From positions 2,033,001 through 2,097,000 of the forward strand of contig NZ_CP094380.1 of the NCBI RefSeq assembly GCF_022809775.1: DNA of 64,000 nucleotides, written 5' to 3'. Positions 47,875 to 58,284 of this stretch are shown piece by piece. Under the pieces are notes generated by a model. That model was not told where the DNA came from, searched no databases, and saw nothing but the letters and a program-made list of their open reading frames with translations. The stretch is from Pseudodesulfovibrio tunisiensis (lineage in GTDB: Bacteria > Desulfobacterota > Desulfovibrionia > Desulfovibrionales > Desulfovibrionaceae). The translations under genes and the position numbers were made by a program. Position 1 is the first letter of the stretch. Each line of letters opens with the position of its first letter.

Positions 47875-49257
47875 TTAGCGTCTGGTCAGCCCGAACTTCT
47901 TGAGTTTGTATTGCAGGGTTCGGCGGCTGATACCCAGCGCCTCGGCCGTGCGTTCGCGATGCCCGCCGTTTTCCTCCAGAGCGCGGATGATGGCGAGCTT
48001 CTCCGCTTCTTCCAGCGATGCCGGAGAACTGACGTGCGGTTCGTCCGCCTCGGGCTGGTCGTAGGCTCCGGCTCCAGCCGTGATCTGGGGCGGAAGCAGG
48101 TCCGGTCCCAGCGTGTCGGATCGGGACAGGATCAGGGCGCGCTCCAGCACGTTTTCCAGTTCACGCACGTTGCCGGGCCAGTCGTAGCCGCTCAGGGCGT
48201 CCAGAAAGGCCGGGGTCACGGTGCGGATGATCTTGTTGTTCTTGCGTCCGAGGCGACGGAGCAGGAAGCTGACCAGCAGGGGCAGGTCCTCCTTGCGGTC
48301 CCGAAGCGGAGGAATGCGGATTTCCAATACGGCGAGACGATAATAAAGGTCTTCGCGGAAGCGGCCCGAAGCTACCTCGGCCTTGAGGTCGCGGTTCGTG
48401 GCCGCGATGATGCGCACGTCCGTGGGCACGGGCTTGACGCTCCCCAGCGGCTCCACAATCTTTTCCTGAAGCGCGCGCAGCAGCTTGGCCTGCAATGCCG
48501 CAGGCATCTCTCCGATTTCATCCAGAAACAGGGTACCGCCGCTGGCGAGCTGAAATCGGCCGGGCTTGTCCTTGACCGCGCCGGTGAACGCGCCCTTTTC
48601 ATAGCCGAACAGCTCGCTTTCCAGCAGATCGTCGGGCAGGGCCGCGCAGTTCACGTTCACCAGCGGGCGATCCTTGCGCAGGCTGGCGCGGTGCAGTCCC
48701 TCGGCCACAAGTTCCTTGCCCGTGCCGGACTCGCCGAGGATCAGGACCGTGGCCTCGGACGGCCCGGCCTGAGCAATGAGGTCGCGCACCCGTTCCACGC
48801 CCGGGCTCGCGCCGATGAAATTCAGGTCGCCGCCTGCCTCCTCCTTGAGGCGCGTGTTTTCCTCGAGCAGGCGGTGGTACTCGTAGGCCTTGTTCAGCAC
48901 AGCCTTGAGTTCCTCGTTGTCCGCGGGTTTGGTCAGGTAGTCGAAGGCGCCCTTTTTCATGGCCTCCACCGCACTGCCCACGCTGCCGAAGGCCGTGAGC
49001 AGGACCACGGGCAGGCCCGGCCTGCGCACCTGCAGTTCGCGCAGCAGCTCCAGCCCGTCCATGCCCGGCATCTTCATGTCCACAAGGGCCACGTCCGGCT
49101 GAACGAAATTTTCCGCGGCCTCGGCCAGTGCGCGCAATGCGGCCTCGCCCGATCCCGCCTCGATCACGGTCCAGTTTTCGTCTTCCAGCACGGCCCGAAC
49201 CATGAGTCGGTGTCCGTGTTCGTCGTCAACGACCAGTACGGTACGATTCTCGTTCAT
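47875..49257 (-). CDS. ZraR/NtrC-type sigma-54 response regulator
   Basis: The 460-residue protein starts at 49257, overlapping the kinase stop by one base. Domains are a receiver (1-120, phosphoacceptor Asp60 in LVDMKMPG), an AAA+ domain (about 145-380) with Walker A GESGTGKE, the sigma-54 contact loop GAFTGA in GYEKGAFTGAVKDKPG and GYDWPGNVRELENVLERA, and a FIS-type HTH at the end (GHRERTAEALGISRRTLQYK). It should activate sigma-54 promoters; two likely targets are at 52686 and 54845. It pairs with the kinase upstream. Confidence 0.92.
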   Translation of the reverse strand: MNENRTVLVVDDEHGHRLMVRAVLEDENWTVIEAGSGEAALRALAEAAENFVQPDVALVDMKMPGMDGLELLRELQVRRPGLPVVLLTAFGSVGSAVEAMKKGAFDYLTKPADNEELKAVLNKAYEYHRLLEENTRLKEEAGGDLNFIGASPGVERVRDLIAQAGPSEATVLILGESGTGKELVAEGLHRASLRKDRPLVNVNCAALPDDLLESELFGYEKGAFTGAVKDKPGRFQLASGGTLFLDEIGEMPAALQAKLLRALQEKIVEPLGSVKPVPTDVRIIAATNRDLKAEVASGRFREDLYYRLAVLEIRIPPLRDRKEDLPLLVSFLLRRLGRKNNKIIRTVTPAFLDALSGYDWPGNVRELENVLERALILSRSDTLGPDLLPPQITAGAGAYDQPEADEPHVSSPASLEEAEKLAIIRALEENGGHRERTAEALGISRRTLQYKLKKFGLTRR

Positions 49258-51107
49258 TACGATACCTCTTTGTCGCATCTGTGGGGAAAAAGGAGTTTCA
49301 CGGACGTGCCCTTGCCCGGGGCGGATTCGATCTCCACCCGGCCCCGGTGGGCGCGCATGATGTTCTGGACAATGGCGAGGCCGAGACCGGTGCCGGTCTT
49401 CTTGCCCGTGACAAACGGCTTGAGTGCCTCGGCCCGGATTTCCTCGGGCATGCCCGGACCGTTGTCCTCGACGATCACCCATATCCCGTCCTTGTCCTGA
49501 TGGGAAACGAGGCGCACGCTGCCCGGTTCCTCGCGGGATTCATCTCCGCCGATGGCGTCCAGACTGTTGGAAATCAGGTTCAGAAGCACCTGCCGGAACG
49601 CGTCCTGATCCGCGCAGACCGTGTCCGCCTGAAAATCGAATTCCGGCAGCACTTCCCGGCTCTCGAAGTCGAACCGCATGAGGCGGCACAGGGATTCCGC
49701 CACCTCGGGCAGGTTGGTGCGCACCGGGGCAAGCTGGCGCGGCTTGGCCAGATACAGCAGGTCCGTGACCACGCGGTTGAGGCGGTCCGCCTCCTGCACC
49801 ATGGTGGCCGCATACTCGTCGAGCGGTTTCTGCCCTTTGAGCTTGTTGGCGAAAAGCTGGGCGAATCCGCGCAGGGAACTGAGCGGGTTGCGCACTTCGT
49901 GAGCCACGCCGGCCGCAAGGGATCCAATGGCTGCCAGCCGTTTTGCCTCGTTCAGATTTTCTTCCAGAGAACGGATTTCCGTGCGGTCCCTGACCAGAAT
50001 CATCCTGAGCCCCTGTTCCGGTTCGCTTTCCTCGGCTTCCTGAAACGGCAGGGACAGGATTTCCAGCTGGCGGCCCTGATAGTCGAACTGTTCCCATTCA
50101 TAGGGGGCGGTTCCGCTGCCTTCCACGGCCTGCATGCCGATGAAGAAATCCTGCCAGTTGCGACCGATGATTTCCGGCACCTTTTCCTGATCCCGGGGCG
50201 CAAGCAGCAGTTTTGCGGAATGGTTGGCGGCCAGAATCTCGCCACTGGCGGACAGGGTGAGCAGACCATCGGGCATGTTGTCCAGCAGCTTGTTCTGGAA
50301 CTGCTCCATGCGCACCAGCTTGCGGGACTGGTCGCGACGATTCAGATAGGCAAAGGCCAGCGACCAGAGCACGATGGCCGCGAGAAACACGTAGCCGGTC
50401 TGATACAGGGCGGCCCGGCGATACTGGCGAAACTGGGCCATGTTCTTTTCCGCATTGATGCCCACGAGCAGAAAGACCGGAGGCGCGTTTGCTGGTTCGG
50501 GCTGCATCATGCCCTGCCCCATGCCCCGGCCCATGCCGTGTCCCTGTCCGCGCATGTGGCCGGGCCCGCGTCCGTGCTGGTTGGCGGACTGGTCCGGAAC
50601 AGGCGGCGGAGTCTCGCCCAACGCCATGAGCGCCAGCGAAGGCCGGGTGCGCACGCCCGAGACAAGCACGTCGCGCTTGTTGATGGAAAACATGAGATGC
50701 CATGCGCGGCCCGGTTCCAGATCACCGGTCAGCCGGGGCGGAATTTCCAGCTTGGGCGGCACGCCATCGGAAACGGACGCGGAAAGGATTGCGCCCTCCA
50801 TGTCCGTAAGCATGACGAAGTCGATGTCCTCGGATTTGGCGAGTTCCGTGAACAGGTCCGTGGCCAGGGTCGAGAACATGGGGGCTGCCGACGGATTCAG
50901 CCGGATGGAACGCACCAGCCTGAGCAGGTTGTTTTCCACGCCGCGAAGAATGGAGCTGCCGGTCATGACCAGATGATCCTCGACCACCTGCCGCTGCTGG
51001 GCAATGCTGCGCCATGTCAGATACAGGGAACCCAGTCCCAGCACGATGAGTGCCAGAACCAGAGCCACGAGCGGTCCCTTTTCCCTTCCCCGGGCATGTA
51101 TTTCCAT
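49257..51107 (-). CDS. ZraS-like sensor histidine kinase with His/Gly/Met-rich loop
   Basis: The 616-residue membrane kinase has helices at about 13-33 and 236-256 that bound a large periplasmic domain. That domain contains an insertion at 178-201 rich in Gly, His and Met (HGRGPGHMRGQGHGMGRGMG), a likely metal-binding segment. A PAS domain (about 270-380) precedes the HisKA phosphoacceptor His403 (GVAHEVRNPLSSLRGF) and an ATPase domain with EDNGPGMP and GTGLGLAIVQNIM. With the ZraR-like regulator and zraP-like gene it forms an envelope zinc/copper-stress type system. The signal is inferred. Confidence 0.88.
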   Translation of the reverse strand: MEIHARGREKGPLVALVLALIVLGLGSLYLTWRSIAQQRQVVEDHLVMTGSSILRGVENNLLRLVRSIRLNPSAAPMFSTLATDLFTELAKSEDIDFVMLTDMEGAILSASVSDGVPPKLEIPPRLTGDLEPGRAWHLMFSINKRDVLVSGVRTRPSLALMALGETPPPVPDQSANQHGRGPGHMRGQGHGMGRGMGQGMMQPEPANAPPVFLLVGINAEKNMAQFRQYRRAALYQTGYVFLAAIVLWSLAFAYLNRRDQSRKLVRMEQFQNKLLDNMPDGLLTLSASGEILAANHSAKLLLAPRDQEKVPEIIGRNWQDFFIGMQAVEGSGTAPYEWEQFDYQGRQLEILSLPFQEAEESEPEQGLRMILVRDRTEIRSLEENLNEAKRLAAIGSLAAGVAHEVRNPLSSLRGFAQLFANKLKGQKPLDEYAATMVQEADRLNRVVTDLLYLAKPRQLAPVRTNLPEVAESLCRLMRFDFESREVLPEFDFQADTVCADQDAFRQVLLNLISNSLDAIGGDESREEPGSVRLVSHQDKDGIWVIVEDNGPGMPEEIRAEALKPFVTGKKTGTGLGLAIVQNIMRAHRGRVEIESAPGKGTSVKLLFPHRCDKEVS

Positions 51108-51116
51108 ACGCTGTTC

Positions 51117-51935
51117 CTAGTTGCCGCGCAGGGCCGCGTACACATCCCTCGGATGGGAGCCGCGTTCCTGTGCCATGTCCTTGAAAGTCTTGTCCGGAGC
51201 CGGAGAAAAGCCCTTCTCCTTGAGCCGTTGCATTGCCTGCTCCATGGGCAGGCCGAATGTGGCGCACACTGCCTCCAGAGTCAGTTTGCCCGTGCCCTCC
51301 GGGGCTGCGGCGGGCATGGCTGCAAACGGGTTCTCTCCGACGAGTTCATCCCGGATCACGTCATACACCTTTTGCGGGCTGGCGTTGTTGGTTCTGGCAA
51401 TGTCCTGAATCGCCGTGTCCGGCGCAACATTGGCGTATCCGGCCTTTTCCAGTGCGGCAATGGCCTTGTCCACGTCAAAGCCGAGATAGCCGCAGAATTT
51501 TTCCAGCGGGCTCTGTTCGGCGTGTCCGTATGGCGGACTGCCATAGGTCGAGGCATGGCCGTCCTTGATCGATGCGCCGAAGTCCAGAATCTGCTGCATG
51601 GGCGGCAGTCCCGCAAAGGTGCCCACGCCCACGAACAGGGTTATGCCCAATGCCGCGAGCATGGGTTTCGTGCCCACGACCAGTTCGCGTGCCTTGTTGC
51701 GCATGTAGTTCATCACGGGCTTCCAGTTCAGCCAGATGTGCAATACCGCGCAGACCAGAAACAGGGTGCCCATGGTCAGATGCAGGTTGTCCCATGCTGT
51801 CTTGCTCAGGCCCATGAATCGCCAGTCCGCCCAATATGCGGTTCGGCCATGGGGTTCGATGTAGAGCACCACGCTGGTGGCCAGCATGACCACGAACGAA
51901 AGCAGGCTGGTCAGGGAAACGGTTTTTCGGAACAT
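51117..51935 (-). CDS. DUF4405 membrane protein with a duplicated C-terminal domain
   Basis: The 272-residue protein has four helices in the first 110 residues with DNLHLTMGTLFLVCAVLHIWLNWK (His52 and His66, possible haem or metal ligands), as in DUF4405. Beyond residue 140 there are two tandem repeats of about 53 residues (142-197 and 218-270), each with E-x-x-C, G, A-x-x-x-L, G, PD, D-x-A and VY. The repeats are not a family I recognise. It lies between zraP and the kinase in one operon; GGAG precedes the start. It may transmit or modulate the metal signal. Confidence 0.75.
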   Translation of the reverse strand: MFRKTVSLTSLLSFVVMLATSVVLYIEPHGRTAYWADWRFMGLSKTAWDNLHLTMGTLFLVCAVLHIWLNWKPVMNYMRNKARELVVGTKPMLAALGITLFVGVGTFAGLPPMQQILDFGASIKDGHASTYGSPPYGHAEQSPLEKFCGYLGFDVDKAIAALEKAGYANVAPDTAIQDIARTNNASPQKVYDVIRDELVGENPFAAMPAAAPEGTGKLTLEAVCATFGLPMEQAMQRLKEKGFSPAPDKTFKDMAQERGSHPRDVYAALRGN

Positions 51936-52094: not shown

Positions 52095-52613
52095 CTAGTA
52101 GCGGCCGCCGCCCTGAGCATATCCCGGGCAGTCGCCGCGCTGATTCCAGCCGTTATGATTTCCGCCGTGATAGCCGCCGTGTCCGCGTCCCTGGCCGAAG
52201 CCCGGGCAGTTGCCGCGCCCATTGAAGGCCGCGATGCCCGTGGTCTTTTCCAGTTCGTCACCCATCTTGACGCGCAGGTCGTGCATGTCGTTGCGCAGAT
52301 TGGTGATCTCGGAGGTCAGCTTGCCGATCTTGGCTTCGTCGGCATTGCCGCTGTTGACCATGGCCTGAAGCGTGGCATGCTTGGCCCACATCTGGTCGCG
52401 CATCTCCTGAAAGCGGGGCGAATACTTTTCGTAAATCTTGTCCACCTGGGCCTGCTTTTCCGGGGTCAACTGGCTGTAGACGCCGTTGCCGCCGCCATAC
52501 CCCTGTCCGCCGCAGCCGCCTCGTCCCCATCCGGGGCCGGCATAGGCCACGGCAGCAATGGCCAGCACCAGCATGGCAGCCATGGTCGTGGTCTTCAAAG
52601 TCTTCGTGGTCAT
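52095..52613 (-). CDS. zraP: ZraP-like periplasmic metal-stress chaperone
   Basis: The 172-residue protein starts at 52613 behind GGAGGTAAC. A signal peptide (1-25) is followed by a Gly-rich stretch with Cys34, a helical Spy/CpxP/ZraP-type core (LTPEKQAQVDKIYEKYSPRF at 49-68, NLRNDMHDLRVKM near 106-118), and a Gly/His/Asn-rich tail (132-172) with Cys136 and Cys162 that can bind Zn2+ or Cu2+. It is the first gene of the operon behind a sigma-54 promoter, as in the E. coli ZraPSR system, though there zraP is divergent. Confidence 0.85.
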   Translation of the reverse strand: MTTKTLKTTTMAAMLVLAIAAVAYAGPGWGRGGCGGQGYGGGNGVYSQLTPEKQAQVDKIYEKYSPRFQEMRDQMWAKHATLQAMVNSGNADEAKIGKLTSEITNLRNDMHDLRVKMGDELEKTTGIAAFNGRGNCPGFGQGRGHGGYHGGNHNGWNQRGDCPGYAQGGGRY

Positions 52614-52685: not shown

Positions 52686-52702
52686 AAGCACAGGGCGTGC
52701 CA
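52686..52702 (-). promoter_or_regulatory. Sigma-54 promoter of the zraP-like operon
   Basis: On the minus strand, TGGCACGCCCTGTGCTT has the -24 GG and -12 GC with ten bases between, matching TGGCAC-N5-TTGCA closely. The gene starts 73 bases downstream. The same 18-base core, TTTGGCACGCCCTGTGCT, precedes the SHOCT gene at 54845. Confidence 0.88.
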
Positions 52703-52762
52703 AAAATGAAAAGTCTTTTATTACAGAGGATAACAAATATTTTCAAAGAACGGCGCTGTTTC

Positions 52763-52796
52763 TTTTGTGCAATTTGTTGCGCTCATGTTTGCACAA
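52763..52796 (-). promoter_or_regulatory. Upstream activator site of the zraP-like promoter
   Basis: The region holds TTTTGTGCAATTTGTTGCGC and an inverted pair TTGTGCAA (52765-52772) / TTGCACAA (52789-52796). It is about 60-95 bases upstream of the -24 element, the usual place for an NtrC-type activator. A related palindrome lies at the equivalent distance before the SHOCT gene. Confidence 0.7.
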
Positions 52797-52893
52797 GTTT
52801 CGAGCAAAGTGCAAGGGAAACCGCTTGACAATTCCCGTATCCGCCCCATCTTTCATCCAGAGAGAAAAGCAATGCCCCAAAGAGGAACTCGCC

Positions 52894-53157
52894 ATGCCCA
52901 TCTATGAATTCAAATGCAATGCCTGCGGGCACGAATACGAGGAACTGGTTTTCGATCCGGACGAAATCCCGGCCTGCCCGACCTGCGGTTCGGACAACGT
53001 GGAGCGGCTGATGTCCATGTTCGAGGGCCGTGCGCCCACGTCCGGGTTCACCATGCCGGACCTGTCCAAGGCCCGGACTCCGGAAATGCTCAAGGACACC
53101 GGCCTGCACAAGAAGCTCGCCTCTGGCAGCGGAAGCTGCGGCTCAAGCGGCGGCTGA
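52894..53157 (+). CDS. FmdB-type zinc-ribbon protein
   Basis: The 87-residue protein starts at 52894 behind AGAGGA. It has the FmdB/CxxC-CxxC regulatory-protein pattern MPIYEFKCNACGHEYEELV and ACPTCGSDNVERL, forming one zinc ribbon, then a flexible tail ending GSGSCGSSGG. Related proteins are called putative regulatory proteins, but a function is not established. It is divergent from zraP. TTGACA at 52825-52830 is a candidate -35, with a poor -10. Confidence 0.88.
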   Translation: MPIYEFKCNACGHEYEELVFDPDEIPACPTCGSDNVERLMSMFEGRAPTSGFTMPDLSKARTPEMLKDTGLHKKLASGSGSCGSSGG

Positions 53158-53202
53158 GGCATCTGATCCGCGTCCCGGTCCGGGACGCCTCCCTCATTTT
53201 TG

Positions 53203-53257
53203 AAAACGCCAATGCGCTCGAAGAGAATATTTCCTTCGAGCGCATTGGCGTTTTTTT
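53203..53257 (+). terminator. FmdB terminator
   Basis: Twenty-base arms, AAAACGCCAATGCGCTCGAA and its complement, are followed by seven T. It is located 46 bases after the FmdB stop and directly before repeat copy C. Confidence 0.93.
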
Positions 53258-53275
53258 GTGGAAATTGTTTTGGGT

Positions 53276-53870
53276 GCGCCGTCTTTTCCGTGCCATCCTG
53301 CAAGGTGAGGATTTCGCCCTTCCCGGGCGAGTTCATTTTTTTGTTGAGGCAAAAAAATAAACGAAAAAAAAGCCTCTATGCGGTGTGCTCCCGACTCCCT
53401 CGGGCAGGAACCAGTAGCGCCCTCTCGCCGGGCGATTGCGACGTTTCCTGCGGAAACCGCATCGCCCCGGCTTCGGTCGCTTCAACTGGTTCCAAGCCCT
53501 CGCGAGCCGAAATTCGGTCTGAGTAAGAGGACAGTGTGCTGGGCGTGAGAAGTCGCCTCGTCCCTACCAAGCTCCCCCGGCCTAGCCAACCTTCCACCGT
53601 TTCCCTTTGATCAAGGCATCCGTCCCAGTGGCAAACGCACGGCAGAACAGCCTTGATCAAGTAGGAAACGCGCACGGCCGGGGCGGTCCCAAAAGGCGGC
53701 TTTTAGTTCCTTTTATCCGCCTTTATATAAAAGGAACTCGCCCGGGAAGGGCGAAATCTTCCCTTATCAAGTTGGTGCGCAGTATACGGCGAATTGCTTC
53801 GCCCGGCACGGCCCACCAAGCTGGTACAGCCCCATCTCTTCAGGGCGCGTCGCCGCGCTGTCTTTGCCGT
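53276..53870 (-). repeat. Mosaic structured repeat, copy C (inverted)
   Basis: This unit is related to copies A and B but lies on the opposite strand. The 25-base sub-repeats are at 53310-53334 and 53734-53758, in inverted orientation. Its central hairpin (53442-53459) reads CGGTTTCC-GCA-GGAAACG on its own strand, with both arms changed relative to copy A. The segment before the GGAACCAGT module matches copy B. Confidence 0.87.
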
Positions 53871-54423
53871 GCCATCCTGCAAGGTGAGGATTTCGCCCTT
53901 CCCGGGCGAGTTCATTTTTTTGTTGGGGCAAAAAAATAAACGAAAAAAAAGCCCCTTTGCACTGTGCTCCCGACTCTCTCAGGCAGGAACCAGTAGCGCC
54001 CTTTCGCCGGGCGATTGCGACGTTTTCTGCGAAAACCGCATCGCCCCGGCTTCGGTCGCTGCAACTGGTTCCAAGCCCTCGCGAGCCGAAATTCGGTCTG
54101 AGTAAGGAATACTGTTCCGAGCGAGAAAGGTCGCCTCGCCCCTACCAAGCTCCCCCGGCCCAACCAACCTCCCACCGTTTTCCTTTGATCAAGGCATCCG
54201 TTCCTGTGGCGGACGCACGGTAGAACAGCCTTGATCAAGTAGGAAACGCGCACGGCCGGGGCGGTCCCAAAAGGCGGCTTTTAGTTCCTTTTATCCGCCT
54301 TGATATAAAAGGAACTCGCCCGAGAAGGGCGAAATCCTCCCTTATCAAGATGGCGCGCAGTCGACGGCGAATTGCTTCGCCCGGCACGGCCCGCCAAGCT
54401 GGCACAGCCCAACCTCTTCGAAA
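53871..54423 (-). repeat. Mosaic structured repeat, copy D (inverted)
   Basis: The fourth unit is a direct repeat of copy C and inverted to A and B. The sub-repeats are at 53889-53913 and 54312-54336. The segment GGAACAGTATTCC before TTACTCAG is the copy-A type (GGAACAGTGTTCC). Copies C and D together occupy the 1.2 kb between the FmdB gene and the SHOCT gene; no supported gene is present there. Confidence 0.87.
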
Positions 54424-54445
54424 CGCGGGACGCCCCGCCGTCCCT

Positions 54446-54481
54446 CAAAAGCAGGAGCGCCCCACACAATGCGGGGCGCTC
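54446..54481 (-). terminator. Terminator of the SHOCT gene
   Basis: On the minus strand, GAGCGCCCC-GCATTGTGT-GGGGCGCTC is followed by CTGCTTTTG, 36 bases after the stop. Confidence 0.75.
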
Positions 54482-54516
54482 TGCGAGAGGAAGGAGAGGG
54501 TTCTTGAAGGAACTGC

Positions 54517-54810
54517 TTATATGTCATGGAGTTCGCGCTTGATGCGATCGAACTCTTCCTTGCTGATTTCGCCAAGAGCGTACCGGCGCTTGAGAATGTC
54601 TTCAGGGCTCTGCGACAGGCCGGAAACCGTCTGGACCGGAGCAGGACGACGAATCGCCCGAAAAAGCAGCAACGCGACCAGAGCCAGAATGATGAGCAGC
54701 GTCCAGGAATGCAGGGACATTCCCCAGAAATACCCGCCGCCGTGAACGCCGTGTCCACTCCAGGAACCGGCCCAGCCGCACCATCCGTTTATTGCTTGTA
54801 TGAAATCCAT
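54517..54810 (-). CDS. SHOCT-domain membrane protein in the zra-like regulon
   Basis: The 97-residue protein starts at 54810 with GAGGA upstream. Residues 10-35 are rich in Gly, His and Trp (CGWAGSWSGHGVHGGGYFWG) and precede a membrane helix (36-52). Residues 69-95 form a SHOCT motif (SPEDILKRRYALGEISKEEF). The His/Gly-rich part may bind metal on the outer side of the membrane. A sigma-54 promoter nearly identical to that of zraP precedes it, which suggests joint control by the ZraR-like regulator. Confidence 0.8.
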   Translation of the reverse strand: MDFIQAINGWCGWAGSWSGHGVHGGGYFWGMSLHSWTLLIILALVALLLFRAIRRPAPVQTVSGLSQSPEDILKRRYALGEISKEEFDRIKRELHDI

Positions 54811-54844
54811 GTCATTCCTCGCTGTCGCTGTGATGTTGAAGACA

Positions 54845-54861
54845 TAGCACAGGGCGTGCCA
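54845..54861 (-). promoter_or_regulatory. Sigma-54 promoter of the SHOCT gene
   Basis: On the minus strand, TGGCACGCCCTGTGCTA has correct -24/-12 spacing. It shares TTTGGCACGCCCTGTGCT, 18 identical bases, with the zraP-like promoter. Confidence 0.88.
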
Positions 54862-54922
54862 AACATATAAAATCAACAATTACGGAAAGATGAGGAACAG
54901 AGACATTGTGCAGGACATCATC

Positions 54923-54944
54923 TTTTGTGCATGATTGCGCAAAA
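54923..54944 (-). promoter_or_regulatory. Upstream activator palindrome of the SHOCT promoter
   Basis: TTTTGTGCA-TGAT-TGCGCAAAA is a near-perfect palindrome with one mismatch between the arms. The shared TCTTTTGTGCA begins 75 bases beyond the promoter core, compared with 74 before the zraP-like gene. Confidence 0.75.
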
Positions 54945-54971
54945 AAACGTGCAATATGCTGCACACTTGAA

Positions 54972-56895
54972 TCAGGATACGGCTGAAAGCTCGAACAGAA
55001 AGACACTGCCCTTGCCCAGCTCGGATTCCACCCAGATGCGGCCCTGATAATGCTGCACGATCTCCCGGGAAATGGCCAATCCAAGCCCGGCCCCGCCTGG
55101 TTTGCAGCTCAAGTCGTCCGGCGCGACAGCCTGATGAAAGGTTTCGAAAACCCGTTCGAGTTCGGATTCGGGAAGACCCGGCCCGGTATCGCTCACGGCA
55201 AAGCGGACCATTTCCGGGGACGCCGCGGATACGGACAGAATCACGCGGCCGGCAGCAGTGAACTTGGCGGCGTTGTTGAGCAGATTGAGCAGAACCTGAA
55301 ACAGGCGATCCGGGTCCACCTCGATTTCGGGCAGCCCCGGCTCCACATCCAGCACCAGTTCCACGTCCGGATTCTGGGCAAACTGTCCGCTCACCGCATC
55401 AACCGCATTTCCGGCAATGGCGCCCGGTGCAATGCGCTGGTCCCGCCACTCCACCCGACCGGACTCGATCTTGTTCAGGTCAAGCACATCGCCGATGAGC
55501 CGGGTCAGCCGTTCGCCTTCAAGAATGAGAATGTTCAGGTTGTCGACAATGCGCGTTCCCTTGGCCCGCAGCATTTCGTCATCCCCCTGCCAGCGTCAGG
55601 AAATGCCGGGAAAAATTCTTGAGAATGAGCTTGGCGAATCCGAGCAGGGAAGTCAGGGGCGTGCGCAACTCGTGGGAAACCGAAGACACCAGCCCGGACT
55701 TGGCCTTGTCCAATTCCATGAGTCGCAGATTCGCGGCCTCGGCAACATCACGAGCCTGTCGAAGCCGTTCCTCCATGTGCTTGCGTGCGGTAATATCCCG
55801 GGAAACCCAGATGACCGAGGCCTCGCCGTGTTCCCGATCCAATCTGGCCGTGCGCCCCTCGAACCAGAAGTGTCCGCCATGCACCGCCAAGGGATACTCC
55901 AGAACCACGGATTCTCCGGCAAGCGTGGTTTCGACCACGGTCATGAACCGTTCCGCAGTCTCCTGATCAACAAAATCCGACATGAGCCGACCACGCATGG
56001 CAACGGGATCATCAAGCAGCAGATGCGCCCTGCCCGTGTACACTTCCAGATATCTTCCGTTCTCGTCCACGATGAACACCGCGTCCGGCAATGCGTCCAG
56101 CAAGGCCTTCATCCTTGCCTTGCGCTCGCGCAGGTCCACGTTGAGCTCACGCAGTTCATCCAGCTTCTGCCGAATGGCTCCGCGCATGCGGTCCAGACTG
56201 CGGGCAAGACTGCCGATCTCGTCGTGCCGATGCACCGGAACATGATGATCGAGGTCGCCGGACGCCAGATTGTCGGCGCTCCGTTCCAGTTCCTCCAAGG
56301 GTCTGGTCACGCGCTGACGCAAAAACAGAAGGATGACCATGGACGTGAGAAAGACGCATGCGGCCGACCCTACGACGAACAGGGCGAAAACCCGGAATTT
56401 CAGCGCCTCGGTCTCGTCCGTGGCCACGCGCACGTAGACGTGAAAGAACGGTCTGCCGCCCTGATATGCTGTCACCGGCGTCACGCTGACCAGATATCCC
56501 TTGCCTGCCTTGGTCTGCCGCAGTACCCACGGGACGTCCGACTCCCCGGAAAACCAGCCCGGGTCGACTCCGGGCACCGAGGATACCGGCCTCATGAGCA
56601 AATCCGGCCTGTACGCATAGTAGATGATGCCGTCCGTGCCCACGACCATGCCGTCCTCGAACCGGTCGCCCACCAGTTCGGTCATGACAGCCTTGTCCGA
56701 CACGCTCTGATACCGAAGCAGTTGACGATTCATGAGCGCGCCCGGAATGCGCACGCTCTCCTCCAGCCCCTTGTCCAACTGACGGGAAAACCACTCGGTG
56801 TAAAACATGCCGAGCGCGGTCAGCACCAGAACCTCCACCGCGACCACCACAGCCGCGATCATCTGGATGAGACTGTTTTTCCAATTCCCGATCAT
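54972..56895 (-). pseudogene. Membrane histidine kinase, split by a frameshift
   Basis: The frame from 56895 encodes two membrane helices around a periplasmic domain (about 35-175), HAMP (about 195-250), PAS (about 265-380) and HisKA (SSVSHELRTPLTSLLGFAKL near 410), then stops at 55579. The kinase continues in another frame from about 55574 with GERLTRLIGDVLDLNKIESG, NLLNNAAKF, SDTGPGLPESE and GAGLGLAISREIV. The break is a run of five G/C bases at 55583-55587; four would restore one protein of about 640 residues. It is ten bases after the solute-binding protein gene. It may be a sequencing error or a recently inactivated sensor. Confidence 0.85.
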
Positions 56896-56904
56896 GGCTG
56901 CGCC

Positions 56905-58185
56905 TCATTCCCTGTTTCCGGCTTTTCCGGCAAGCTCGAAACGGGCCCGGGCCTGCAATTGAAGCCGTGAAAGAATCGCGGCATGCTCGCTGGGCGCACG
57001 CAAGAATTCCAGAAACGCATTCAATCCAAGGTCAGCCACGTCGGGCAGGGTCGCCAAATCATAGTTGAACGCCCATCCCGGAGCAGAGCGCGCCATCCCG
57101 GCCAACCTGACCTGAAGCGGACCATACACGGTATCCGGCACCCTGTAGCTGGGAGACAGCGCCCCGGACCCGCGGCTCATGGCAAGCTGCGGTCCGGCTT
57201 CGGCAAAATAGGCGACAACCTTTTTCGCGGCCTTGACCCGACCTCTTGCCGGGACCACGATCACATCCACGGGACCGACCGCCACCTGAGGCACGTCGCC
57301 GTCCACCACGGGAAATCGAAACACGCCGTAATCCTCGGACTGCCTCCATCCAAGCTGACCGTCGAAAAGTCCGATGATCCACGACCCCATCAGGGTCATG
57401 GCAGCCTTTCCGGTTCGCAACCGGGTCGCGGCCTCGGCCCAATCCAGTTGCAGCGCATCATCATTGAAATATCCCTGTTCCAGCAGATCGGCCCAAAGGG
57501 AAAAGGCCCGCAGCACCCGCGCATCGTCATATGATGCCGTGCCTCGCATGAGATCGCGGCGGAAATCCGGTCCGGCCGTGCGCAGCAGGAGATAGTCGAA
57601 CCAGAACTGGGCTGGCCAGCGCTCCCGGGCTCCAAGGGCAAGGGGCGTGATTCCGGCTTTGCGGAAACGGGCACAGACAGCCTTCAGCTCCTCCCATGAT
57701 CTCGGAGGGACCATGCCGTGGGCACGAAAAAGTTCCCGATTGTAGAAAAGGGCCACGAAATGCTGGGTCACGGGCACGGCGTACCTGTGACCGTCGTAAG
57801 TGCAGGCATTTGCGATGTTTTCGGGAAAGACGGCATCCAGTTTTCCGTCTTCCCACACATCGTCGAGAGGTTCCAGATAATCCCGAGCCACAAGAGACTG
57901 CACCCGTGCTCCGGCCCAGTAGGAAAAGAGATCGGGCACGGTGCCGCTGGCCAGCATGACCCGGATGCCCACCTTGTAGGATTCGTGCTCGAATCCCTGC
58001 GCCTTGACCCGATAGGCCGGATTGGCACGGCTGAAGGTATCCATCATGGCGTCGATGCCGCCAGAAAAGGGACCGGACCAATAGTGGAGGAAGGTGAGGC
58101 CCGAAGGGGACTCACCCGAAGCCCTGCCGCAGAACAGCGCAGGAAAGGCCAAAACCAGGACAATAAGAAAAACCGCCCGTTTCAT
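56905..58185 (-). CDS. Family 1 extracellular solute-binding protein
   Basis: The 426-residue protein starts at 58185 behind GGGAG with a signal peptide (1-24). It has the sugar-type binding fold: LTFLHYWSGPFSGGIDAMMD, GTVPDLFSYWAGARV, RYAVPVTQHFVALFYNRELF, and GKAAMTLMGSWIIGLF near 275. No ABC permease or ATPase gene is adjacent. The kinase gene directly downstream suggests that it presents a ligand, perhaps a carbohydrate, to that sensor. TATAAC at 58234-58229 (minus) is a possible -10. Confidence 0.85.
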   Translation of the reverse strand: MKRAVFLIVLVLAFPALFCGRASGESPSGLTFLHYWSGPFSGGIDAMMDTFSRANPAYRVKAQGFEHESYKVGIRVMLASGTVPDLFSYWAGARVQSLVARDYLEPLDDVWEDGKLDAVFPENIANACTYDGHRYAVPVTQHFVALFYNRELFRAHGMVPPRSWEELKAVCARFRKAGITPLALGARERWPAQFWFDYLLLRTAGPDFRRDLMRGTASYDDARVLRAFSLWADLLEQGYFNDDALQLDWAEAATRLRTGKAAMTLMGSWIIGLFDGQLGWRQSEDYGVFRFPVVDGDVPQVAVGPVDVIVVPARGRVKAAKKVVAYFAEAGPQLAMSRGSGALSPSYRVPDTVYGPLQVRLAGMARSAPGWAFNYDLATLPDVADLGLNAFLEFLRAPSEHAAILSRLQLQARARFELAGKAGNRE

Positions 58186-58284
58186 GCAGGCTCCCTGTTG
58201 CGGACAACGCAAGGCAATGCCTTACGCAGTTATAGATCATGTCACAGGGTGGCGGTAAGGAGAATGGTATTATAAATACGAAAA

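Follow-up and report, generated by a model that had tools for sequence, protein, structure and literature searches.

A ZraPSR-like operon of Pseudodesulfovibrio tunisiensis and its likely sigma-54 regulon, with a structured RNA among the targets

In a 64,000-nucleotide stretch of Pseudodesulfovibrio tunisiensis DNA (NZ_CP094380.1, positions 2,033,001 to 2,097,000; hereafter the window), one operon encodes a ZraP-like periplasmic protein, a DUF4405 membrane protein, a histidine kinase and an NtrC-type response regulator, and a separate gene encodes a small SHOCT-domain membrane protein. We consider it likely that this ZraPSR-like, one-operon two-component system controls a small sigma-54 regulon made up of its own operon, the SHOCT gene and an RNA of ~315 nucleotides (nt) encoded outside the window. 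A single regulator would then probably activate a few envelope-stress genes via shared promoter sites. The promoters and their upstream arrays, their conservation, their co-occurrence with a regulator ortholog and the conserved structure of the RNA are read directly from the computation, and a metal may be the signal.

Results

Operon, SHOCT gene and their promoters

The genes and promoter elements of the window are as follows.

47875-49257, minus strand: NtrC-type response regulator with receiver, sigma-54 activation domain and Fis-type helix-turn-helix (Pfam PF00072, PF00158, PF02954)
49257-51107, minus strand: histidine kinase (Pfam PF00512, PF02518)
51117-51935, minus strand: DUF4405 membrane protein of the operon (Pfam PF14358)
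52095-52613, minus strand: ZraP-like periplasmic protein, first gene of the operon (Pfam PF13801, Metal_resist)
52687-52704, minus strand: sigma-54-type core of the zraP-like operon (core searches in the window and in relatives)
52762-52814, minus strand: half-site array (GTGCAA/TTGCAC elements) upstream of the operon (sequence; same arrays in relatives)
54517-54810, minus strand: SHOCT-domain small membrane protein with Gly/His/Trp-rich N-terminus (Pfam PF09851; sequence)
54846-54863, minus strand: sigma-54-type core of the SHOCT gene (core searches in the window and in relatives)
54907-54965, minus strand: half-site array upstream of the SHOCT gene (sequence; arrays in relatives)

Pfam and the sequence bear out the gene identities proposed in the initial annotation: a GAFTGA-bearing NtrC-type regulator, its kinase, and the DUF4405, ZraP-like (Metal_resist) and SHOCT proteins. 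GAFTGA stands at residue 222 of the regulator, which matches the NtrC-family structures 4l4u and 1ny5 and the ZraR structure 1ojl. The kinase carries a His/Met/Gly-rich insert near residue 178. The ZraP-like protein scores 63.4 against the Metal_resist cut-off of 29.2 and matches the ZraP structure 3lay with an E-value of 9.1e-13. The DUF4405 protein is 49-61% identical to its counterparts in 28 same-genus relatives listed with loci; among the best 80 of 163 loci, named relatives at 51-60% identity belong to Pseudodesulfovibrio, Salidesulfovibrio brasiliensis and an uncultured Desulfovibrio.

As annotated, the zraP-like operon and the SHOCT gene are preceded by the same 18-base core, TTTGGCACGCCCTGTGCT, which is exact at both sites and nowhere else in the 3.61-Mb genome. 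The core fits the sigma-54 consensus shape TGGCAC-N6-TGCT. At up to three mismatches the window holds no further match, and shuffled windows hold 0.09 matches on average, with two matches in 0 of 100. Genome-wide, the number of matches at up to three mismatches (11) equals that of the reversed control (11, as 9+2). Therefore, only the two exact copies and one copy with a single mismatch, at G000:C1:3031404 outside the window, stand out.

TGCACAAAAGA is found upstream of both cores, and the 11-mer TCTTTTGTGCA is exact at 52761-52771 and 54921-54931 on the plus strand. The annotated site "74 and 75 bases" upstream is indeed there twice, but these figures are differences between left coordinates and include the core; the true gaps are 56 bases for the operon and 57 for the SHOCT gene. 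The 11-mer is weak by itself, since at least two matches at up to one mismatch arise in 23 of 100 shuffles. Nor is it a palindrome, as had been proposed: it contains one half-site of a TTGCAC/GTGCAA array. Core identity was likewise taken as a sign of shared control, and we reject it as evidence of co-regulation, because this genome alone among the 22 that have both promoters carries identical cores.

Both promoters are conserved across the genus

The relatives comprise 60 genomes, 36 of the same genus and 24 others. DUF4405 relatives occur in 31 of them (29/36 of the genus) and SHOCT relatives in 37 (31/36 of the genus). We fetched 30 DUF4405 loci, 29 of them same-genus, and 30 SHOCT loci, 27 of them same-genus. 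All 29 same-genus DUF4405 loci have a core with upstream half-sites; in 28 the core precedes the zraP-like gene and stands ~0.7-1.0 kb upstream of DUF4405, and in the remaining one (L038) core and array are nearer to the gene. A core lies just before the SHOCT start in 26 of the 27 same-genus loci. The sole locus without one near the start, L070, perhaps carries a paralog. None of the three fetched SHOCT loci from other genera has a core close before the start.

The half-sites are likewise enriched. TGCAC/GTGCA elements number 5.3 per zraP promoter (n=28) versus 1.0 in shuffles, 4.0 per SHOCT promoter (n=26) versus 0.7, and 5.2 per third-target promoter (n=34) versus 1.5. The proximal half-site most often starts 69 (zraP), 59 (SHOCT) or 60-61 bases (third target) upstream of TGG, with ranges of 25-81, 50-65 and 44-72, respectively. 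The conserved feature is a -24/-12 site with a TTGCAC/GTGCAA half-site array, not core identity, and a conserved -24/-12 core together with predicted activator sites upstream is what a sigma-54 promoter would present. Absence of core and site from relatives had been named as the observation that would speak against the prediction; instead, both promoters are kept across the genus.

The predicted circuit of SHOCT, ZraP-like and DUF4405 proteins with the two-component pair stands insofar as both promoters are conserved. It was incomplete, because a third, RNA-like target lies elsewhere. In addition, DUF4405 is dispensable, since in five genomes without a DUF4405 match (G003, G004, G015, G030 and G031) core and array still precede a zraP-like gene.

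A structured RNA as probable third target

The array also marks a third target, an RNA of ~315 nt. It has two hairpins that covary, stretches of CCUCCUC and a stem resembling a terminator, and most copies hold a near-leaderless open reading frame (ORF). Comparison with relatives suggests that this structured RNA, which would be overlooked in gene lists, belongs to the gene set as well. We examined 38 loci behind the promoter pattern for this target.

In an alignment of 27 sequences, 95.6% of the cells in the two hairpins are paired and 12 of 15 pairs are changed on both sides, giving the conserved secondary structure with covariation that is looked for in a regulatory RNA. None of 500 shuffles reaches any of five measures, and six slid versions of the structure reach 27-55% paired cells and 3-7 pairs, a control in which the true structure is favoured because it is taken from the consensus. 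The terminator stem is present in the consensus, and in 11 of 28 loci a script finds it followed by a run of at least four T. CCTCCTC occurs in 27/27 genus RNAs, at 1.85 per RNA versus 0.07 in shuffles.

A covariance model of the first 106 positions (R1), built from sequences of 27 genomes, matches 30 of the 36 genus genomes and 0 of the 24 others among the relatives, and 28/33 genus genomes and 0/264 others in an order-wide draw. Three positive genomes were not in the training set (G024, G029 and G030), the G024 copy being equal to that of G035. The copy of P. tunisiensis matches with an E-value of 1.2e-17, the weakest among the best matches per genome. G003 and G015 have tandem second copies, each with its own core and half-sites. 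In Rfam 15, the RNA loci L003, L086 and L124 give only matches far below the gathering scores.

The RNA could instead simply be the mRNA of a small membrane protein, its hairpins and C-rich tail serving just stability or translation. In 28 of the 38 loci, from 28 same-genus genomes, an ATG stands 11 or 12 bases after TGCT and opens an ORF of 62-68 codons; given the usual sigma-54 start spacing, the message presumably starts within one or two bases of this ATG. Gap events are multiples of three in 4/4 cases in the first 205 alignment columns and in 5/7 in the whole ORF, versus 7/38 downstream. The ratio of nonsynonymous to synonymous differences (pN/pS) is 0.59 in codons 1-24. All these points favour a messenger. 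However, pN/pS then rises to 1.03 and 0.89 and is 0.82 overall, versus 1.02 and 0.94 in the other two frames, indicating that protein constraint is weak. Among the remaining 10 loci, four transcripts have a longer ORF (G014, G016, G020 and G023), L128 is a zraP-like gene and three are without assignment. The other two, in G009 and G031, are C-rich transcripts without an ORF of at least 35 codons starting in the first 70 nt. These two speak against a messenger, as does a diverged extra copy in G032, in which hairpins, core, CCTCC and terminator are retained and the first ORF has 22 codons. We regard a plain messenger as rather doubtful, and interpret the third target as a functional RNA, most copies of which also hold an ORF.

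The G032 copy lies in L260 (G032:C1:2030000-2044000), which also holds one weak match, near two further SHOCT genes.

Promoter arrays co-occur with the regulator

Genome-wide, we searched with a strict composite pattern, GTGCA-N4-24-TGCAC-N38-68-TGGCAY-N6-TGCW, and its reversed control. It matches 40 of the 60 relatives (36/36 of the genus and 4/24 others), with 0 for the control. In P. tunisiensis it matches the zraP and third promoters, and a looser form gives four matches (zraP, SHOCT, the third site and L072) with a control of 0. L072 is rejected as a target: it has a single half-site and no array, and is probably a chance match. A second composite, TTGCAC-N4-24-GTGCAA-N50-80-TGGCAY-N6-TGCW, matches 46 of 297 genomes of the order, in 12 of 55 genera, with a control of 0; within the genus it matches just 3 of 33 genomes, P. 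tunisiensis not being among them, and a non-match therefore does not mean that an array is absent. By eye, its 30 fetched loci comprise 15 zraP-like genes, 11 RNA-like stretches (g18, g38 and g25) and 4 others (L294, L295, L302 and L307).

Regulator orthologs (E at most 1e-140) are present in 35 of the 36 genus genomes, where two of the matches are partial, and in 13 of the 24 others. The strict array is found in 39 of 48 genomes with the ortholog versus 1 of 12 without (Fisher 5e-6, kinship uncorrected); the single exception, G029, is 82% complete. A second comparison covers all 30 same-family genomes outside the genus that match the second composite, and 28 negatives picked by hand. Here the ortholog (E at most 1e-150) is found in 30/30 array-positive versus 12/28 array-negative genomes (Fisher 4e-7, kinship uncorrected). 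In other families, arrays precede zraP-like genes in G036, G047, G040, G051, G055 and G059, as read by eye from translations.

The promoters and arrays could also be real and yet be bound by another NtrC-type regulator of the genome, the operon's own regulator having other targets. A paralog at 46% identity would provide such a regulator, and nine of the 48 ortholog-bearing genomes lack the strict array. However, both within the genus and beyond the family the array precedes the regulator-encoding operon, and outside the genus the ortholog is present in all 30 array-positive genomes of the second comparison, versus 12 of 28 negatives. Binding by another regulator is thus quite unlikely. That the two window promoters are alike through recent local duplication or gene conversion, with no shared control, is very improbable: their core identity, seen in this genome alone, would fit, but the core flanks are not alike and both promoters occur separately, with arrays, across the genus.

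Several observations weigh against control of the three promoters by the operon's regulator, or against the RNA reading. The strict composite misses the window's own SHOCT promoter. Besides the nine genomes just mentioned, a good core with half-sites is not seen in seven ortholog loci from other families (L265, L266 and L269-L273), L264 ending too early to show whether core and array are present. Outside the genus alone, the strict array occurs in 4/13 genomes with the ortholog versus 0/11 without (p = 0.1), and all these co-occurrence statistics ignore kinship. Pattern matches at L076, L096, L130 and L131, and at the four other loci of the second composite, have no assigned target. The RNA copy of P. 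tunisiensis folds just moderately better than shuffles (z -2.81), and the small ORF shows weak protein constraint. The unassigned matches and the loci without arrays temper our confidence in the regulon and in the family-wide RNA reading given below.

In L078 (G059:C1:778267), array and core precede a frame that looks DegP/HtrA-like by eye. Such a target would fit an envelope-stress regulon.

Other C-rich transcripts behind the same promoter type

In three other genera, different C-rich transcripts with CCTCC lie behind the same array and sigma-54 core, at these loci.

L308-L320: transcripts of g25
L303-L306: transcripts of g18
L296, L297, L299: transcripts of g38

The g25 transcript, of ~140 nt, is found in 13 of the 17 genomes searched, with CCTCC in the terminator loop in 13/13. 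The folding z-scores of two copies are -6.7 and -7.1, and 6 of 14 consensus pairs are changed on both sides. A different transcript occurs in 4 of 10 g18 genomes, with CCTCCTC in 4/4. For g38, the pattern is present in 4 of 10 genomes and CCTCC runs follow it in three; the fourth locus, L298, has none and is unlike its fellows. Fragments from L304 (too short a piece) and L297 do not outdo shuffles in folding (z 0.34 and -0.97). A conserved structure is shown only in this genus's RNA and, less strongly, in that of g25. By inspection, without a coding test, no ORF common to the transcripts is seen within the g25, g18 or g38 group, and Rfam 15 matches for L308, L304, L297, L312, L315, L258 and L125 are far below the gathering scores. 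Hfq (PF17209) was not found in the P. tunisiensis genome by a search that is positive in 5 of 14 control genomes, including E. coli and B. subtilis.

From these patterns we propose, with middling confidence, that throughout the family a ZraR-like regulator, acting with sigma-54 through TTGCAC/GTGCAA arrays, governs zraP-type genes plus lineage-specific, mutually unrelated CCUCC(UC) small RNAs. This would be a Qrr-like logic applied to envelope stress, in at least one genome where Hfq is not found; in one genus the RNA would also carry a near-leaderless gene for a small membrane peptide.

Neighbouring features

Between the SHOCT gene and the operon lies a tandem pair (53276-53850 and 53855-54419, 92% alike) of a ~575-base intergenic repeat with inverted-repeat ends. 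Copies of ~495 bases or more number 34 in the genome, and many of them stand in tandem. We reject this 1.2-kb interval as a part of the regulon, since it is a genome-wide repeat and Rfam 15 gives no match in the window at gathering score.

Upstream of the SHOCT gene, 54972-56895 encodes a second histidine kinase (HAMP, PAS, HisKA and HATPase domains), its frame interrupted near 55579 so that two ORFs result. A kinase-like ORF of 638-639 codons stands beside the SHOCT gene in L137 and L134. Directly upstream of the second kinase, 56905-58212 encodes an extracellular solute-binding protein (PF01547), which is perhaps its sensor partner.

Discussion

The system resembles the enterobacterial ZraPSR in having a periplasmic ZraP-like protein, a kinase and a sigma-54 activator of the same domain make-up. 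However, all three proteins fall below the NCBIfam cut-offs. The regulator reaches 418 of 760 bits against ZraR, with higher scores for AtoC (454 of 714) and NtrC (421 of 559); the kinase reaches 229.5 of 479 against ZraS, AtoS being slightly higher (232 of 646); and the small protein reaches 52.9 of 200 against ZraP. The label "ZraR-type" therefore describes a resemblance and not membership, and by these scores the system is ZraPSR-like rather than ZraPSR. In E. coli, zraP is divergent from zraSR, whereas here the zraP-like gene, kinase and regulator share one operon with DUF4405, and the SHOCT gene and the RNA would be extra targets.

The predicted RNA arm recalls LuxO-Qrr of Vibrio, in which an NtrC-type regulator and sigma-54 drive regulatory RNAs and the LuxO sites likewise have TTGCA...TGCAA half-sites. 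In contrast, the regulator here stays far below the NCBIfam LuxO cut-off (361 of 800 bits), and the RNAs are without an Rfam match at threshold and are tied to a ZraP-like operon in a genome where Hfq is not found. Two enterobacterial systems are also comparable: GlrR-GlmY/GlmZ, in which a sigma-54 response regulator drives small RNAs, and CpxP-CpxQ, in which an envelope-stress response produces a relative of ZraP and has an RNA arm too. No sequence link to either is seen, and the regulator scores 359 of 763 bits against the GlrR model.

In the mechanism that we propose, the kinase would sense an envelope state. The phosphorylated regulator would bind the TTGCAC/GTGCAA array, whose proximal half-site in most cases lies 59-69 bases upstream of the -24 element, and would drive sigma-54 polymerase at three promoters: those of its own operon, of the SHOCT gene and of the structured RNA elsewhere in the chromosome. 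The RNA would probably pair its CCUCC(UC) stretches with Shine-Dalgarno sequences. In most genomes it may also be translated from the 62-68-codon ORF, which opens with an ATG at, or directly beside, the predicted start of the transcript.

A coincidence of two promoters becomes a defined regulon with a searchable site. An uncharacterised SHOCT membrane protein is thereby connected with a ZraPSR-like system, and a conserved structured RNA comes into view that annotation relying on proteins would pass over. Since promoters of this type stand before different RNAs in other genera, the site offers a direct route to envelope-stress RNAs in sulfate reducers, and a test of whether CCUCC-bearing RNAs act in sulfate reducers without Hfq.

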